DNA from: a virus
IMG/VR virus record: IMGVR_UViG_3300036768_000228
Coordinates: 1 to 29,539 of that record
Length of the DNA stretch: 29,539 bases
Direction: 5' to 3' (one strand)
The position numbers and the translations under genes are program-made. Under the pieces are notes generated by a model, which saw nothing but the letters and a program-made list of their open reading frames with translations, had not been told where the DNA came from and searched no databases. Positions 2-28,543 of this stretch are shown piece after piece. Every line of letters begins with the position of its first letter. The first letter of the stretch is position 1.

Positions 2-718
2 AATATACTGCCTTCTGGTTCTATTGACGCACAAAATGATTATATACCAATAATTCATGCTGGTGATAATTATAGAATACCTATTCAAGTATTTGCAAGA
101 ACATATGTTCCCAACTTTTTTACTCAATTTCAAACTATCTCTGGAAGTTTAATTACTACTGGTAGTGTTCTTGTAACTGGTAGTGTTATTACAGATAAAT
201 TCCAGATGAAATCTGGTGCTGTAAGTGGATATGTATTTACTTCGGATTCAAATGGGAATGCATACTGGTCAACTGGAAGTATTACAAAATATCAATTATC
301 GCTTAAAAGAAGTTCTGGTTTTGCAGTGAATTCAAGTACAATAGATAACCCACAAACATTTATTTATGACGTAATTGATTTCTCTACATTCCCAACTGCT
401 GGAAGTGAGTATAATACTACAACTGGTGTATTTACTGCTCCTCTTACAGGTGTATACCTTGTGCACTATAATGTACTTGTATTAAATACGGGTGTTGCTC
501 AACTGTTTAGAATTACGAATAGTAAAAATGGTAGAGGTAGGGAAGATAGAAACTTTGGTTTAACTAATGCAAATATGCATTTAAGTACTAATTTTAGTGT
601 TAGATTAAGTGCTGATGAAACTATGACATTAAGAATAGAAAATAATTCATCGCAAGTAAACGCTACACCTGACCAAAGGTGGACTTGGGCTACAATAACA
701 TATCTTGGAAATGGTTAA
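2..718 (+). CDS. Tail fibre protein, C-terminal part, with C1q-like tip domain (5' end outside window)
   Basis: The reading frame is open from base 2 to the TAA at 716-718, so this is the last 238 residues of a longer fibre. The ATG at 206 is internal, because the frame continues upstream with fibre-type sequence. The segment encoded by 161-268 (TGSV..TGSVITDKFQM, then SGYVFTSD) is a module repeated four times in the 1249-residue fibre at 19227. From about base 280 the sequence is a beta-rich domain containing YNTTTGVFTAPLTGVYLVHY, the signature strand pair of C1q/TNF-like domains, and later LSADETMTLRIENN, which fits the following strands. C1q-like domains form compact trimers at fibre tips and bind ligands, so I infer a receptor-binding tip. 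The fibre identity is firm; the receptor is unknown. Confidence 0.85.
   Translation, partial: NILPSGSIDAQNDYIPIIHAGDNYRIPIQVFARTYVPNFFTQFQTISGSLITTGSVLVTGSVITDKFQMKSGAVSGYVFTSDSNGNAYWSTGSITKYQLSLKRSSGFAVNSSTIDNPQTFIYDVIDFSTFPTAGSEYNTTTGVFTAPLTGVYLVHYNVLVLNTGVAQLFRITNSKNGRGREDRNFGLTNANMHLSTNFSVRLSADETMTLRIENNSSQVNATPDQRWTWATITYLGNG
120..162 (+). repeat. Direct repeat shared with 19981-20023
   Basis: These 43 bases match 19981-20023 almost perfectly (two differences by eye) in the same orientation. They encode the TQ-QTISGSLITTG joint in both fibres. They lie just before the 161-268 module here, but just after the second tandem module in the large fibre gene. This suggests past exchange or duplication between the two fibre genes. 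Confidence 0.8.
161..268 (+). repeat. Fibre module repeat, copy in upstream fibre gene
   Basis: This 108-base segment encodes the TGSV-TGSVITDKFQM-SGAVSGYV-TSD-NGNAYW module. The same module occurs at 19524, 19764, 21438 and 22425 in the large fibre gene. It probably forms a repeated trimeric shaft or joint element. Confidence 0.85.
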
Positions 719-19226: not shown

Positions 19227-22200
19227 ATGAGAAAATTAACAAAAGTACTTTTAAAATTAAATAATGGAAATTATCAACCAGATAGTGGACAATCTTTATC
19301 TATAAAGACAGATGAACCAACTCCTGTAATTGTTGCTAATGCAATAGAAAATCCACCAAATAGTGGAAATTATGAAATTACTTGGAATGAAATTCCAAAA
19401 TATGGATTTTGGTATGTAAATAACATAATTAAAGAAGAATGGGGTAGATTATGGTTAGGTTCTGTTGTAGGTAATATAAATTATGTAAATGATTTTTTAG
19501 TTGATGGTGATTTAAGTGTTAATGGTAGTGTTATTGTAACAGGAAGTGTTATTACAGATAAATTCCAGATGACATCTGGAGCGGTAAGTGGATATGTATT
19601 AACATCAGATGCAAATGGTAATGCATATTGGTCAAGTGGTAGTGGAGGTGGAGGTACTACTAATCATGCTGCTTTAACTAATCTTGATTATTCTTCATCA
19701 GGTCACACTGGATTTGCTGGAACTGGAGTAGTAAATCAATTTTCACAAAATCAAATTATTACAGGTAGTGTTATTGTAACAGGAAGTGTTATTACAGATA
19801 AATTCCAGATGACATCTGGAGCGGTAAGTGGATATGTATTAACATCAGATGCAAATGGAAATGCAAGTTGGATGCCTTCGGGTAGTGGAGGAGGTACAAC
19901 TGACCACGCTGCTTTAACTAATCTTGATTATTCTGTATCAGGACATACTGGATTTGCAGGCACTCAAGTTTCCAACCTTTTTACTCAACCTCAAACTATC
20001 TCTGGAAGTTTAATTACTACTGGAAGTTTGAGATTAAAAAATCCTGAGAGCTTTAACACAAATATAGTATTTACTGGCACTGGTCTTAACGATTTAAGTG
20101 CGAGTGGTAGTTTTAGAGGTAGGCTTGATAGCAATTTTGTAGTAATAAAAATTGATAGTACTTCTCCTTCCAATGGTTTGCCTGTAGATACATTTTCTGT
20201 ACAAAATCAAGGTGAATTTGTAGTACCGCAAAATCAAATAACACCAGGACTACCACAAGAGGTGTCTGACGGTATATTTATCACATTTACAAATGGTACA
20301 GGTCATACACTTAATGATACATGGACAATAAACCGTCAAGTTAATAGTGTTATTATTGTTGATAAACAAGATGGAGCTAAGTCTATAGAGGTAGCTCCAT
20401 CTGGAAAAATGAGATGGTACGACCAAACAGGAACTTCAGTACAACCATTTCCTGCTTATGGTCACGTTATGACTACACGTGGAACTATATCAACTGCTGG
20501 TCGTGCTATAGGCCTTCAGATTGTAAATCACACTGATATTGCTGGTGATTTACTTGTAGGTGCATTTTTTGATTGTAGAGTAAACTCTGGAGCAAGAAGA
20601 GCTACATGGACTACGCCTAATATGCTTGGGTTTGGTATTCCATTACGACTTAATACTGTAATGAGATATGGAACAATGGTTGGATTTGAACTTCAACCTC
20701 AAATAAATGTTACTGGCGGTCACGTTGATACAGTAATTAATGTTAGAAATCAAGTGTTCCCAAATAATGGTACAGTGGGCAGATGGTATGGAATTGCAAA
20801 TTTTAGTGGTGAAGCTAATCTTAATAATATTAGTGAAGGATATGGAATATTCCAAAGTGCAGATAAAGTATTAAATGTTTTTGGTCATAAATCTATATTT
20901 GGAAATACTAATCCTCCTATTCATAATGCCGATTATACATTAGATATTTCAAAGAATATCTTTATAGCAGATAAAACTCAATTAGGTAGTGAACTTGTTG
21001 TCAATGGAGATTTTTCAAGTGGTAGTGGGTGGGATTCTACTGGATGGACAATATCTGGTGGAATAGCAACACATAATACAGGAAATACTAATCCACTTAC
21101 ACAATCTGTACCTATTACTATAGGTAATGCATATGTTGTTTCATATCAACAACTTATGCCTTCAACTTCAAGTGCTGGTACTGTTACTGTAAGTATTGGT
21201 GGGCAAACATTCCAGACAAGTAATTATAATAGTACATTTACAAAAACATTTATTGCTACTACACAGGACCCACTACAAATTACTCCTTCCAGTAATTTTG
21301 ATGGTAGTATCGACAATGTTAGTGTAAAACAAATACTTACACCAAACAGTGTAAAATTAGTTAATCTTGGTAGTACTGCGCTTGGTAAAACATCGGCAAA
21401 TAATACTCTTGATGTTTTAGGTACTGTATCTGTAACTGGTAGTGTTATTGTAACAGGAAGTGTTATTACAGATAAATTCCAGATGACATCTGGTGCTGTA
21501 AATGGATATGTACTTACTTCGGATTCAAATGGTAATGCATATTGGTCAAGTGGTAGTGGAGGAGGTACTACTAATCATGCTGCTTTAACAAACTTAGATT
21601 ATTCTGTATCAGGTCACACTGGATTTGCGGGAACTGAAGTAGTAAACCATTTCACACAAAATCAAGTAATAACTGGTTCTATTTATACTCTAAGTCCTAT
21701 TTTTATTTCAGGGTCACTTGCATCTAATGCTATAACAAGTGAACCATTTCTTATGGTACATAGACCATTTAATAGTGGAGTATCTTTCCCTGAAATTGTT
21801 CAATTCAATATAGGCTCTTATGCGACAGGTATAGGTTCTGAGTCGAAATTTGAAATATACTTGAAATCTATATCTGATGGAGTAATTAGTGCAGATAACC
21901 TCGTAGCAAGTTTTCAAGCCAATAATGTATTAGATTTACCAAATGGTATAATTCAATCTCTTACGAAAATTGGAGTAAATATAGGAGCCTCTGTATTACC
22001 TGATATACCTTTACAAGTTAATAGTCGTAATGATGCTTTACGCGGGAATTATTCTGTTACAAACTGGAATTCATCTGGACAAGCTGTTCCAGCAATGTTT
22101 AATACTCCTACTAATAATGGTGGTAATTCTCCTGAACCACTATTTCCAGCAATTGTACTTGCTAGAGAGGGTGTAGGTGGTCAAAAATATAATAATTATG

Positions 22201-22976
22201 TCGATTTTAGAATAGGAAGTTATCAAAGTGGTTTATCTCCAGCAACAGCATTAGCTATTGGATTATACAATATCCAAACAGATGCTACTACTAATGTTGT
22301 ACAAGTAATGTTCTCTGATGGAAGAGTTGCAGTTGGTAATGTAAATTCGATTACAACAAATAATGTTCAGAATAATTTTGAAGTATTTGGAAAATCAAGA
22401 TTCAATAACAATGTACAAGTTACAGGTAGTGTTATTGTAACAGGAAGTATTATTACAAATAAGTTCCAGATGACATCTGGAGCGGTAAATGGATATATAT
22501 TATCATCAGATGCTGTTGGAAATGCTAAATGGATTGCTTCAAGTACTATAGGTACTACTAATCATGCTGCTTTAACTAATCTTGCTTATTCTTCATCAGG
22601 TCACACTGGATTTGCGGGAACTGGAGTTTCTAATACATTCACTAAAACTCAAATTGTTTCAGGTGGTATTGTTGTAACTGGTAGTTTGAGTATAGAACCT
22701 ACTTTTATTAGTTCACCAGGTTTATATACAGTTCTTAGTAAAGATTATGTTATTTTTGCAAGTGCGTCTTTAGGAGACATTCATATTCAATTACCTCCTA
22801 TCAATATTTCTGTTGGTAGACATATCAAAATTAAAAAAATAGATTCATCGTCTAATAATGTACATGTATCTGGGTCATCTGGACAATTAATTGACGCTAA
22901 TGCTGTGAAAAGTCTAACTACTCAATACGCCAGTTTAAGTATTATTGGTACTAGTACTCAATGGTATATTATATGA
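19227..22976 (+). CDS. Large tail fibre protein with repeated modules and CBM-like domain
   Basis: This 1249-residue fibre has an N-terminal baseplate-anchoring part (1-95), then four copies of a TGSV-TGSVITDKFQM-NGNAYW module (starting near residues 100, 180, 738 and 1067). Each is followed by a TNHAALTNLDYSSSGHTGFAG-like element. Between copies 2 and 3 lie a beta-rich region (about 260-580) and a jelly-roll/CBM-like domain from about 587 (ELVVNGDFSSG to DGSIDNVSVKQI). A further beta domain lies between copies 3 and 4. The C-terminus (YTVLSKDYVIFA, IQLPPI, IKIKKIDSSS, WYII) matches a terminal domain common in phage fibres. A good ribosome site (AAGGTG) precedes the ATG. It probably binds host surface glycans. 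Confidence 0.85.
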   Translation: MRKLTKVLLKLNNGNYQPDSGQSLSIKTDEPTPVIVANAIENPPNSGNYEITWNEIPKYGFWYVNNIIKEEWGRLWLGSVVGNINYVNDFLVDGDLSVNGSVIVTGSVITDKFQMTSGAVSGYVLTSDANGNAYWSSGSGGGGTTNHAALTNLDYSSSGHTGFAGTGVVNQFSQNQIITGSVIVTGSVITDKFQMTSGAVSGYVLTSDANGNASWMPSGSGGGTTDHAALTNLDYSVSGHTGFAGTQVSNLFTQPQTISGSLITTGSLRLKNPESFNTNIVFTGTGLNDLSASGSFRGRLDSNFVVIKIDSTSPSNGLPVDTFSVQNQGEFVVPQNQITPGLPQEVSDGIFITFTNGTGHTLNDTWTINRQVNSVIIVDKQDGAKSIEVAPSGKMRWYDQTGTSVQPFPAYGHVMTTRGTISTAGRAIGLQIVNHTDIAGDLLVGAFFDCRVNSGARRATWTTPNMLGFGIPLRLNTVMRYGTMVGFELQPQINVTGGHVDTVINVRNQVFPNNGTVGRWYGIANFSGEANLNNISEGYGIFQSADKVLNVFGHKSIFGNTNPPIHNADYTLDISKNIFIADKTQLGSELVVNGDFSSGSGWDSTGWTISGGIATHNTGNTNPLTQSVPITIGNAYVVSYQQLMPSTSSAGTVTVSIGGQTFQTSNYNSTFTKTFIATTQDPLQITPSSNFDGSIDNVSVKQILTPNSVKLVNLGSTALGKTSANNTLDVLGTVSVTGSVIVTGSVITDKFQMTSGAVNGYVLTSDSNGNAYWSSGSGGGTTNHAALTNLDYSVSGHTGFAGTEVVNHFTQNQVITGSIYTLSPIFISGSLASNAITSEPFLMVHRPFNSGVSFPEIVQFNIGSYATGIGSESKFEIYLKSISDGVISADNLVASFQANNVLDLPNGIIQSLTKIGVNIGASVLPDIPLQVNSRNDALRGNYSVTNWNSSGQAVPAMFNTPTNNGGNSPEPLFPAIVLAREGVGGQKYNNYVDFRIGSYQSGLSPATALAIGLYNIQTDATTNVVQVMFSDGRVAVGNVNSITTNNVQNNFEVFGKSRFNNNVQVTGSVIVTGSIITNKFQMTSGAVNGYILSSDAVGNAKWIASSTIGTTNHAALTNLAYSSSGHTGFAGTGVSNTFTKTQIVSGGIVVTGSLSIEPTFISSPGLYTVLSKDYVIFASASLGDIHIQLPPINISVGRHIKIKKIDSSSNNVHVSGSSGQLIDANAVKSLTTQYASLSIIGTSTQWYII
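19524..19980 (+). repeat. Tandem 240-base module repeat in fibre gene (two copies)
   Basis: The modules beginning at 19524 and 19764 are exactly 240 bases apart. Their first 108 bases (19524-19631 and 19764-19871) are almost identical at the nucleotide level. The second parts have diverged but share the ALTNLDYS-SGHTGFAG coding core. This points to a fairly recent duplication or gene conversion. Confidence 0.88.
19981..20023 (+). repeat. Direct repeat partner of 120-162
   Basis: These bases match 120-162 in the upstream fibre gene nearly perfectly in the same orientation, about 19.86 kb apart. The intervening DNA holds all the tail core genes. Confidence 0.8.
21438..21545 (+). repeat. Fibre module repeat, copy 3
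   Basis: A 108-base copy of the fibre module. Its end (TCTGGTGCTGTA, then TTCGGATTCAAATGG) is closer in wording to the copy at 161-268 than to the neighbouring copies at 19524 and 19764. Confidence 0.85.
22425..22532 (+). repeat. Fibre module repeat, copy 4 (most diverged)
   Basis: A 108-base copy encoding TGSVIVTGSIITNKFQM and SSDAVGNAKW, again followed by a TNHAALTNLAYSSSGHTGFAG element. Confidence 0.85.
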
Positions 22977-25794: not shown

Positions 25795-26187
25795 ATGTTT
25801 AAATTTTATAGACCTTATGTAGGTAGTCTAATAGGAATATTACTTAGACTATTATATTTAGGAAAATATCAATTTAGATTTGCTAAATTTGATGATAGAT
25901 ATTATGCATATGTATATGAAGTAGAATGGTTATTTCCATTCTGGATGAAAGTTATAGGACAATCACATGGAGAAATAATTTTTATTCATCAAGATATTGT
26001 ATCCAATAAGGATAAATTTGTAAAAGCATTATTACATGAATACACACATGTACAACAAACACGTAGATATGGATGGTGGGGATTAGGATTTATTATTAAA
26101 TATATATGGTATACTATTAAATATGGATATAAAAATAATCCATTGGAAATAGAAGCAAGAGAAGCAGAAAATACCACTACTCCTTAA
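25795..26187 (+). CDS. Small HEXXH zincin-like protein
   Basis: A 130-residue protein with H81-E82-Y83-T84-H85 followed by VQQ, the zinc-binding HEXXH helix of zincin metalloproteases. NPLEIEAREAE (about 115-125) offers a third acidic ligand (E118 or E120). A hydrophobic N-terminal stretch (about 8-22) and an aromatic hydrophobic patch (about 93-112) suggest membrane contact. HE-x-x-HVQQ with a downstream E-x-x-A resembles DUF4157-type and related putative peptidases. Substrate is unknown. The gene ends 11 bases inside the convergent RNA ligase gene. It may be the last gene of the tail operon or an early gene of its own; no strong ribosome site or terminator is seen. Confidence 0.62.
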   Translation: MFKFYRPYVGSLIGILLRLLYLGKYQFRFAKFDDRYYAYVYEVEWLFPFWMKVIGQSHGEIIFIHQDIVSNKDKFVKALLHEYTHVQQTRRYGWWGLGFIIKYIWYTIKYGYKNNPLEIEAREAENTTTP

Positions 26188-27256
26188 ATGATTCTAACAA
26201 AATATTACGTATAATATCATTATTATTTTCTTTTCCAGAGAAAAGATTCATTATTAATGAAAATTTTTTACTTTTGCCATAAATATTCATCATATTTATT
26301 GCAAAATCTTTTCTATTCATTTTATTATTTAATGCATTTTTTACAATATTTTTTATATTATTTATGTCATTGTTCAATTCGTTTATTTTTTCAAACATTT
26401 TTAAAATTAATGGCATAGCCCACAAAGTTATTTCTTCATCATATGTTTCTTTAAAATAATTAATAAAGTCATTAATTGATGAACATCCGTTATCAATCCA
26501 CATATCAATAAGATACTCAATATTTACGTTATTTTTTAATCTATGTTTAAGTAAATAAGCGTCACATTTTACTTTTACAAGTGTTTGTTCATTATGAATT
26601 CTTATAACCCAACCTTCTACAGTAGAATCTGTTTTGGTTTTTTCAATAAGATTATTAAATCCTTCATTATCAAGAACAAAAAATTCAGTGTGTTTAACAT
26701 TTAATACTTTTGAAATTTGAATTATTTCATCCATTTTTGCATATTTCATAGTATCATGATACACTGCTCCAATAAGAATAAGCTCAGGCTCTTCATAATT
26801 AATAATTATCTTATTATTTGGGGATACCCACTCAAATAATAAACTCATATTATTATATAAATTTATATCCCAAATCAATGGATATTTATATTTAAAAATA
26901 GAATCAACTTCCCATGAATTTTCTAATCCTTTATAGTCAAAGGAGCCACGAGTTCTAAGAATAATATCATTATTATAAACAGAACGTATAAGTAATGAGC
27001 CGTCTATTTTTAGAGTAGCTATAGCGTCATTATTCTTTATAGCTTCTATTACATCTGAAGTTGTTACAGTTAAATCATTACAATATTGATTTAAATTTAC
27101 AAATTTACCGAATCCTTGAGAAACAGTTTTTCCATCTAATGTTTCTATTCTGGACCGATTCCACATGTTAGCTTTTGTCCAGGATTCATTAGTAATAGCT
27201 GTAACCTTTTGAGGGTAAATTAATCTAATATTTCCTTGTTCTATAATATTAAACAT
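26177..27256 (-). CDS. rnlA: RNA ligase, T4 Rnl1 family
   Basis: A 359-residue protein close to the length of T4 RNA ligase 1 (374). It shows the nucleotidyltransferase motifs in order: motif I K83-IDGS (adenylated lysine), GFGKFVNLNQ upstream matching the Rnl1 segment before motif I, motif III LFEWVSPNN (about 140-148), motif IV VEGWVIR (213-219) and motif V VKVKCDAY (about 227-234). A Lys/Asn-rich helical C-terminal domain follows, as in Rnl1. Rnl1 joins 5'-phosphate to 3'-hydroxyl RNA ends with ATP and in T4 repairs cleaved tRNA. No polynucleotide kinase is in this window. A promoter candidate at 27290-27318 would give a ~27-base leader. Stop is TAG; the 3' end overlaps the convergent zincin gene. 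Confidence 0.9.
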   Translation of the reverse strand: MFNIIEQGNIRLIYPQKVTAITNESWTKANMWNRSRIETLDGKTVSQGFGKFVNLNQYCNDLTVTTSDVIEAIKNNDAIATLKIDGSLLIRSVYNNDIILRTRGSFDYKGLENSWEVDSIFKYKYPLIWDINLYNNMSLLFEWVSPNNKIIINYEEPELILIGAVYHDTMKYAKMDEIIQISKVLNVKHTEFFVLDNEGFNNLIEKTKTDSTVEGWVIRIHNEQTLVKVKCDAYLLKHRLKNNVNIEYLIDMWIDNGCSSINDFINYFKETYDEEITLWAMPLILKMFEKINELNNDINNIKNIVKNALNNKMNRKDFAINMMNIYGKSKKFSLIMNLFSGKENNNDIIRNILLESFKE

Positions 27257-27275: not shown

Positions 27276-27304
27276 TTGACATTTTCCATAATATACTTTA
27301 TATT
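27276..27304 (+). promoter_or_regulatory. Plus-strand promoter A
   Basis: TTGACA (27276-27281) and TATATT (27299-27304) with a 17-base spacer. It overlaps the divergent ligase promoter. Expected transcripts start near 27311 and run toward the structured RNA region. Confidence 0.65.
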
Positions 27305-27318
27305 AAGTATAAAGTCAA
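27290..27318 (-). promoter_or_regulatory. Promoter for the RNA ligase gene
   Basis: On the minus strand, TTGACT (27313-27318) and TATATT (27290-27295) are separated by exactly 17 bases, with an expected start near 27283 and the ligase ATG at 27256. The spacer contains a perfect 7-bp inverted repeat, CTTTATA/TATAAAG (27296-27302 and 27308-27314), a possible operator. The -10 lies inside the spacer of the plus-strand promoter at 27276, so the two cannot be occupied together. Confidence 0.7.
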
Positions 27319-27350: not shown

Positions 27351-27379
27351 TTGACATTTATGATAAAATATCGTATATT
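27351..27379 (+). promoter_or_regulatory. Plus-strand promoter B, for the structured RNA
   Basis: TTGACA (27351-27356) and TATATT (27374-27379) with a 17-base spacer, 75 bases after promoter A and similar in much of its spacer. The expected start falls near 27386-27388, at the first base of the P1-like pairing of the RNA. Confidence 0.7.
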
Positions 27380-27386
27380 ATGTATT

Positions 27387-27636
27387 AATTTATGAGGTAA
27401 AAATATGCAGTAAATTTTAACATTTTGCCATAAAAAAGCTGTAGGCAGAATCAGCGAAACTTTGGTTCAGATTGACCATTGGAACAGGCAACGTGTGTTT
27501 TGGCGGTAAGAGAAACCGCTGTGGAATTATTTCAGTTTTCCACGATGTTTTAAAACAAACTGAAAACTTAATATAGCGATGACAGCTATTAAAAATGGTC
27601 AGGTTGGGGAGGGAGGGAATAGGACTCTATTCATAT
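27387..27636 (+). ncRNA. Candidate structured RNA, compact group I-like ribozyme or relative
   Basis: No gene fits here, and GC rises to about 38% by hand count (27421-27600). Pairings seen: 27387-27393 with 27410-27416 (ending in a U.G pair, P1-like); 27425-27429 with 27487-27491 (P3-like); GCTG 27438-27441 with CAGC 27452-27455 (P4-like); GAA/TTC 27456-27458 with 27466-27468 (P6-like); TGACCATT 27473-27480 with AATGGTCA 27594-27601 (P7-like, 8 bp, pseudoknotted with P3); GAATAG/CTATTC 27617-27632 (P9-like). GTTCAGATTGACC resembles the group I R element, and TCAGCGAAAC the Q element. Also seen are a hairpin at 27501-27521 and GTGGAA/TTCCAC at 27521-27543. Missing or weak: P5, a clear P8, and a terminal omega-G. 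An alternative helix, AGCTGT/ACAGCT (27437-27442 with 27582-27587), competes with P4. RNA is likely; group I is tentative. Confidence 0.5.
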
Positions 27637-27660: not shown

Positions 27661-27677
27661 TCATACCTTCGGTATGA
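27661..27677 (+). other. Short hairpin
   Basis: TCATACC (27661-27667) and GGTATGA (27671-27677) pair perfectly around a TTC loop. It lies between the structured RNA and the longer hairpin and may belong to the 3' end of the same transcript. Confidence 0.6.
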
Positions 27678-27684
27678 CACTCAT

Positions 27685-27717
27685 ATCTGTGAACCGTAAA
27701 AAACACGGTTCACAGAT
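27685..27717 (+). terminator. 13-bp hairpin, probable terminator of the structured RNA transcript
   Basis: ATCTGTGAACCGT (27685-27697) and its exact complement (27705-27717) enclose a seven-base A-rich loop. TTAATT follows, a modest U tract, so termination on the plus strand is plausible. No T run exists on the other side, so it does not look bidirectional. Confidence 0.65.
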
Positions 27718-27796: not shown

Positions 27797-28543
27797 ATGA
27801 ATGATTTTTATAGAAATTTTATCAAAAAAGAATTTCCTAATGTAAAAATTAAATATAAAGATAAATCTTTTATCTATAATTTAAATAAATTTAATTCAAA
27901 TACTATTACATGTTATCGTAATACTATCTATTTTCCATCTAAAAAATTCTTTAAAGAAAATTCTTATGAAATAATAAATGAAATTTTATCACATGAATAT
28001 GTTCATCTTCATCAATTTAAAAACAATAAATTTCATTTATTATTAACATCCTTACCAGAGTCTATAGGTAATTTGTTAATATTTTTATCTTCTATTTTAA
28101 TGATATTGAATTATTTTCCAAATATATGTATATTGTTTTTAATTATAGGATTTTCTATAATATTATTTCCAATTTATCCATATTTTAGAATAAAATCTGA
28201 ATTCGATGCATATAAAATGACTATTTTAGTAAGAATAACTCAATGGAATAATAAATTTAATTTACCCAAATCTCATTATAATTTATTAACTTTATCTGAT
28301 GATATGTTAAGAAGAATAATAGATACTTTATTTTCATATCATTACAATACTGCATTTGTACCCTCAGTTATTAAAAATTATTATTTTAAGAAAATGAAAA
28401 TATGGAGAAATGCATGTAATAAAATATACTTTCAAGAAAGATTTGCATTTGAAAATGGAAAAATGTATATTTATTCTAGGAATATTTATTTACGTGTGCT
28501 TCGGTATTTTATCTACAATAATATAAAACCTCATGTATCCTAA
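27797..28543 (+). CDS. Membrane-associated HEXXH zincin-like protein
   Basis: This 248-residue protein has H66-E67-Y68-V69-H70 in an ILSHEYVHLHQ helix and a downstream E135 in SEFDAYK, a possible third zinc ligand. Between them are two adjacent hydrophobic segments (about 88-107 and 109-128), forming a membrane hairpin. The C-terminal ~100 residues are basic and aromatic. The order of strand, HEYxH helix and E-x-x-A resembles the 130-residue protein at 25795, so the two may be relatives, with the hairpin inserted here. No ribosome site is clear. The last 11 bases overlap the dNMP kinase gene, so the two are probably co-expressed. Substrate is unknown. Confidence 0.62.
   Translation: MNDFYRNFIKKEFPNVKIKYKDKSFIYNLNKFNSNTITCYRNTIYFPSKKFFKENSYEIINEILSHEYVHLHQFKNNKFHLLLTSLPESIGNLLIFLSSILMILNYFPNICILFLIIGFSIILFPIYPYFRIKSEFDAYKMTILVRITQWNNKFNLPKSHYNLLTLSDDMLRRIIDTLFSYHYNTAFVPSVIKNYYFKKMKIWRNACNKIYFQERFAFENGKMYIYSRNIYLRVLRYFIYNNIKPHVS

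Follow-up and report, generated by a model that had tools for sequence, protein, structure and literature searches.

Phages can encode structured RNAs that act in trans, such as the pRNA of phi29, and an association with phages is known for the non-coding RNAs GOLLD and ROOL. To our knowledge, few phage non-coding RNAs of the size described below possess a near-invariant core, and those that do mostly have no known role. Phage RNA biology also includes tRNA repair, a pathway whose ligase in phage T4 is Rnl1. With such repair enzymes, phages oppose the action of anticodon nucleases (PMC2610378). Here, we describe an RNA encoded beside an Rnl1-type ligase gene in a 29.5-kb IMG/VR fragment from a contractile-tailed phage; this whole stretch of 29,539 nucleotides is called the window. 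The RNA matches no Rfam family but recurs in related and unrelated viruses, and it is therefore probably a real, uncharacterised piece of viral RNA machinery.

The sheath protein of the window phage has a distant relative in Bacillus phage G (29% identity). Contig IMGVR 3300035183_000373 matches positions 1-23583 at 99.8% identity, and a second contig of sample 3300035183 carries an RNA region identical to the window's. Elsewhere in the window (158-280 and 19520-22685), repeats of 76-270 bases that are 82-92% alike lie within and between tail-fibre-like ORFs. The RNA is located in a gap of 540 bases without a gene, flanked by divergent ORFs (26177-27256 on the minus strand and 27797-28543 on the plus strand). 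GC content in this gap is 35-39%, versus 14-28% in the surroundings. An earlier, sequence-only reading had noticed the raised GC, the absence of a gene and the RNA-ligase neighbour, and had proposed that the segment has its own promoter. The GC values, the gap and the ligase assignment bear out the first three, and a near-consensus predicted site supports the fourth. The neighbours, promoter-like sites and possible 3′ end are as follows.

26177-27256, minus strand: neighbour, a T4 Rnl1-type RNA ligase (phrog_562, E 2.8e-40); only a candidate member of the RNA's system.
27276-27304, plus strand: upstream promoter-like site, TTGACA-17-TATATT; in contig L005, the insertion of a 530-aa ORF parts it from the RNA.
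27290-27318, minus strand: divergent promoter-like site for the RNA-ligase gene, TTGACT-17-TATATT, a sequence match.
27351-27379, plus strand: near-consensus promoter-like site, TTGACA-17-TATATT; stays with the RNA in copy L016; predicted start near 27386.
27661-27717, plus strand: another two hairpins, of which the 13-bp second one (27685-27717) resembles a terminator with a weak U tail; a possible 3′ end of the RNA.
27797-28543, plus strand: downstream neighbour, a SprT-like putative metallopeptidase (weak Pfam match, below cut-off); also the neighbour in G002.

When the window was scanned more loosely from end to end, the only TTGAC...TATATT sites were these three, all inside the 540-base gap. 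The separate 3′ end is only a candidate because no terminator-like site with a U tail was found in the G002 copy described below. Just inside the predicted transcript (27394-27411), a GAGG is spaced ahead of the two-codon ORF AUG CAG UAA, and L016 retains a Shine-Dalgarno-like GGAG despite changed letters. General Shine-Dalgarno usage was not found in the window phage, and the mini-ORF was for that reason set aside.

Homologous copies were reached by three routes. A search with the ligase led to L016, on the same contig as L005, whose RNA is 94% identical to the window's. There, a 530-aa ORF without a Pfam match (L005:1477-3069, plus strand), absent from the window, separates the ligase from the RNA and the distal from the proximal promoter; the proximal promoter is kept beside the RNA. 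A search with the sheath led to G002, a 172-kb phage contig whose ligase is 49% identical to the window's. A 26-nt match adjoins this ligase, and a divergent RNA copy lies between the ligase and the SprT-like gene, as in the window. A degenerate pattern of the shared motif led to a third copy in L060, a 40-kb phage whose proteins are almost without relation to those of the window or G002; its terminase, portal and Sak4-like gene are unrelated. A comparison of the L060 phage with G002 for shared proteins yielded just a metallophosphoesterase-like protein and some weak structural matches, which were uninformative. A 37-nt match (E 3.5e-8) links the L060 and G002 RNAs to each other. Since L060 came from a motif search, its homology was tested with the motif removed: model R2, built from the region downstream of the 5′ motif in the window, L016 and G002 without L060, ranked the L060 RNA first in its 40-kb contig (31.3 bits, E 1.4e-7; runner-up 9.0 bits). 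The known set thus comprises four sequences from three lineages (window and L016, G002, L060).

All copies share GCC-N14-GGCAGA-N1-2-UCAGC-R-AAAC, followed by three back-to-back hairpins and a GGU-rich purine tract. The elements of the RNA in the window are listed here.

27427-27460, plus strand: invariant 5′ motif, GCC-N14-GGCAGA-A-UCAGC-G-AAAC; 100% conservation over all three lineages (four sequences).
27474-27480, plus strand: strand GACCAUU directly 5′ of hairpin A; pairs with 27594-27600 in the window lineage, the aligned strand pairing with the hairpin-C loop in G002 and L060.
27481-27501, plus strand: hairpin A, GGAACA / UGUUUU, from the four-way alignment.
27502-27520, plus strand: hairpin B, GGCGGU / ACCGCU, loop AAGAGAA (AGAA conserved); four compensatory pairs, 100% of cells paired.
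27521-27543, plus strand: hairpin C, GUGGA / UCCAC; 95% of cells paired, with U-A replaced by A-U at one pair in L060.
27530-27565, plus strand: candidate loop-C pseudoknot read from the sequence, window lineage only; UUUCAGUUU (27530-27538) with AAACUGAAA (27557-27565).
27594-27600, plus strand: AAUGGUC, partner of 27474-27480; C-G to U.G in L016, the adjoining GAUU/GGUU becoming GACC/GGUU.
27602-27615, plus strand: purine tract GGUUGGGGAGGGAG; counterparts GGUAGGGGGG in G002 and GGUAGAGGGG in L060.
27617-27632, plus strand: hairpin D, GAAUAG / CUAUUC; G-C to A-U in L016, but also one A.C mismatch.

Taken alone, the window segment folds no better than expected by chance: its minimum free energy is -55.8 kcal/mol (z -1.44), a value reached by 18 of 200 shuffled sequences. 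With so ordinary a fold and Rfam silent, a single sequence is insufficient as proof of a structured RNA. The evidence is instead comparative. On the four-way alignment, the named structure pairs 89.7% of cells, against 31-52% after sliding the partners. Seven pairs change on both sides, four of them in hairpin B, and none of 500 shuffles reached seven, although with four sequences such controls are only indicative. The covarying stem of hairpin B occurs as GCGGU/ACCGC, AUGAU/AUCAU and GUAGU/ACUAC. Likewise, the strand preceding hairpin A pairs with the hairpin-C loop in the same register as UGGGU/ACCCA in G002 and GCGGU/ACCGC in L060. Over these helices, 14 G.U pairs versus one A.C on the plus strand mark it as the structured strand, as RNA. 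Covariation is thin, the known copies being just four sequences in three lineages. Nonetheless, the compensatory changes indicate that the segment is a real structured RNA. The comparison further shows a folded core of ∼120 nt (27427-27544), an invariant 5′ motif plus three hairpins, in unrelated phages with different neighbours.

Pairings outside the hairpins are less certain. The 5′ motif may form a pseudoknot in which GCC (27427-27429) pairs with GGC (27444-27446) and GCUG (27438-27441) with CAGC (27452-27455); this pairing is a candidate because nothing in the motif varies. The loop-C pseudoknot has the same standing, as the window and L016 show no variation there. Beside the helix 27474-27480/27594-27600, two adjoining U.G pairs have turned into C-G in L016. 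The purine tract, GGUUGGGGAGGGAG or GGUAGRGGGG, follows the hairpins in all copies, in a 3′ part where the four-way alignment is unreliable and the comparison was made partly by eye. It is the best anti-Shine-Dalgarno match of each copy, at a level that is not significant (4, 4, 9 and 15 of 60 shuffles as good).

Searches of reference collections returned no described relative. None of the 4227 families of Rfam 15 matched the window RNA at the gathering score, and at E<=10 there was no credible match for the window, G002 or L060 copies. Nucleotide searches with these three RNAs in 50,697 phage records, and with the L060 RNA in plasmids, gave no homologue. Model R1 found nothing at E<=1e-3 in 395 Bacteroidota and 398 Pseudomonadota genomes; in 398 Bacillota genomes it gave six matches, five in tRNA-Cys genes and one inside an ORF. 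As there was no positive control among these 1,191 bacterial genomes, the result is not proof of absence from bacteria. Several candidates were discarded. The pattern CAGAATCAGCGAAACT returned both known close copies and chance coding matches; GCTGTAGGCAGAN{1,4}CAGCNAA had 22 matches in bacterial genomes, none RNA-like beyond the pattern. Two further degenerate viral patterns gave no new member (a match in L113 sits inside a gene), and a 19-bit match in phage G is located inside gp542. As far as these collections show (Rfam 15, 50,697 phage records, 1,191 bacterial genomes), the copies would constitute an undescribed family of phage RNA.

The first identity to be weighed is that of a group I-like ribozyme or derivative, the main proposal of the sequence-only reading. 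Its six pairings are each present in the window letters, where long-range pseudoknotted pairings can indeed be drawn as in group I introns, but the conserved helices are different ones. With an ordinary single-sequence fold and a silent Rfam, such pairings are not trustworthy without homologues, and the homologues disagree with them. The P1-like helix, said to end in a U.G pair as at a 5′ splice site, loses one pair in L016, which has AATTCAT for AATTTAT. The helix 27425/27487 is absent from G002 and L060, whose hairpin-A loops have no GGC. The P3-like helix 27438/27582 finds no partner in L060, and in G002 just a wobble match at a distance of ∼220 nt. The P7-like helix 27473/27594 fares better: L016 preserves it, one C-G having become U.G (27474-27480/27594-27600), but G002 and L060 form other pairings. 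Strand order is also wrong: ∼100 nt of hairpins lie between the P7 5′ strand (27474-27480) and the P3 3′ strand (27582), which adjoin in group I, and no helix that could be P8 lies between 27587 and 27594. The group I covariance model RF00028, the check that the earlier reading had itself proposed, gave no match at the gathering score or at E<=10. All copies are intergenic, with no interrupted gene, as that reading had said, and without exons or known splice sites. We therefore reject the group I identity as extremely improbable. Its fallback, another undescribed phage RNA, fits the homologues, the compensatory changes, the predicted promoter and the absence of an Rfam match. A DNA-level element, a replication or packaging site folding as a single strand, would suit an intergenic position between divergent promoters, but the excess of G.U over A.C pairs on the plus strand and the strong predicted promoter directly upstream make it very improbable.

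Resemblance to tRNA raises another reading, in which anticodon nucleases and the Rnl1-type repair ligase would meet the RNA as a tRNA-like decoy or substrate. The 5′ motif resembles Bacillota tRNA-Cys(GCA) from the D-loop to the anticodon loop (L134-L139; window 27427-27460); in letters, L060 has AAGCUGUA-GGCAGAGGUCAGCGAAAC against AAGCGGUAAGGCAGAGGUCUGCAAAAC. The six R1 matches included five tRNA-Cys genes (E 2e-5 to 8e-4 per genome), which should be regarded as a single event. G002 carries 35 tRNA genes for most amino acids within ∼17 kb (L122, G002:C1:120001-140000, and the start of L123); the same cluster includes a tmRNA whose tag peptide is unusual. This cargo, together with the opposition of phage tRNA repair to anticodon nucleases, makes the likeness worth noting. 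A tRNA-Lys(UUU) gene also lies ∼130 bases upstream of an Rnl1-type ligase in L036 (3799-3874, plus strand), where other members carry the RNA or nothing. However, the phage RNA forms none of the tRNA stems: acceptor stem, D-stem and T-arm are missing, the 3′ strand of the anticodon stem is absent by inspection, and ARAGORN found no tRNA. Against the G002 tRNA set, shuffled motifs scored as well in 581 of 2000 cases for the window (29%, not significant), 17 of 2000 for G002 (0.9%) and 220 of 2000 for L060 (11%). Most relatives of the ligase come without the RNA: it is missing upstream of the ligase gene in five of them at 43-48% identity, and R1 found no RNA above 20 bits in the seventeen other ligase-bearing records searched. 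In a protein comparison, the L060 phage showed no protein related to the window's ligase. Adjacency is thus common only to the window lineage and G002, and the link between RNA and ligase is weak. A decoy or substrate role appears improbable, and the tRNA-Cys likeness of the 5′ motif is a resemblance still lacking explanation.

The main rival is a cis-acting leader or attenuator of the downstream gene, since in each of the three lineages the RNA is oriented like the gene that follows it. The window and G002 share the SprT-like gene in the same orientation (no relatives of it were found in the phage collection), and a terminator-like hairpin separates RNA and gene in the window. In L060, the next gene and its neighbourhood differ, which counts against a fixed cis target; the invariant core is far larger than a simple attenuator, and no alternative terminator/antiterminator pairing was identified. 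On balance, a leader seems unlikely, though distinctly less so than a decoy. We favour, with roughly even confidence, an undescribed family of structured phage non-coding RNA made as a stand-alone, trans-acting transcript, an explanation supported by the proximal predicted promoter, unmatched in strength within the window and kept despite the upstream gene insertion in L005. Transcription would begin at the predicted promoter (27351-27379) and could reach the hairpins at 27661-27717, giving about 240-340 nt. The folded RNA would then act in trans during infection, binding a protein or, via its purine tract, the host translation machinery. That the RNA occurs both in a phage-G-like virus and in an unrelated 40-kb phage suggests a mobile module meeting a conserved partner. 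More tentatively, and with somewhat less than even confidence, these RNAs may form a new trans-acting class that spread horizontally among unrelated phages and whose target is a conserved host component, for example the ribosome, the tRNA machinery or an RNA-binding protein.

With the alignment, the model and the coordinates, the RNA is now directly searchable and testable. Among known systems, phi29 pRNA resembles it as a phage-encoded structured RNA with trans action, which for the present RNA is proposed; the architecture differs, and no Rfam match links the two. GOLLD, ROOL and OLE (PMC12286853, PMC2864571) are stand-alone structured non-coding RNAs of unknown role, a description that would also fit the phage RNA, but they are much longer, and the window, G002 and L060 RNAs match none of the 4227 Rfam families.
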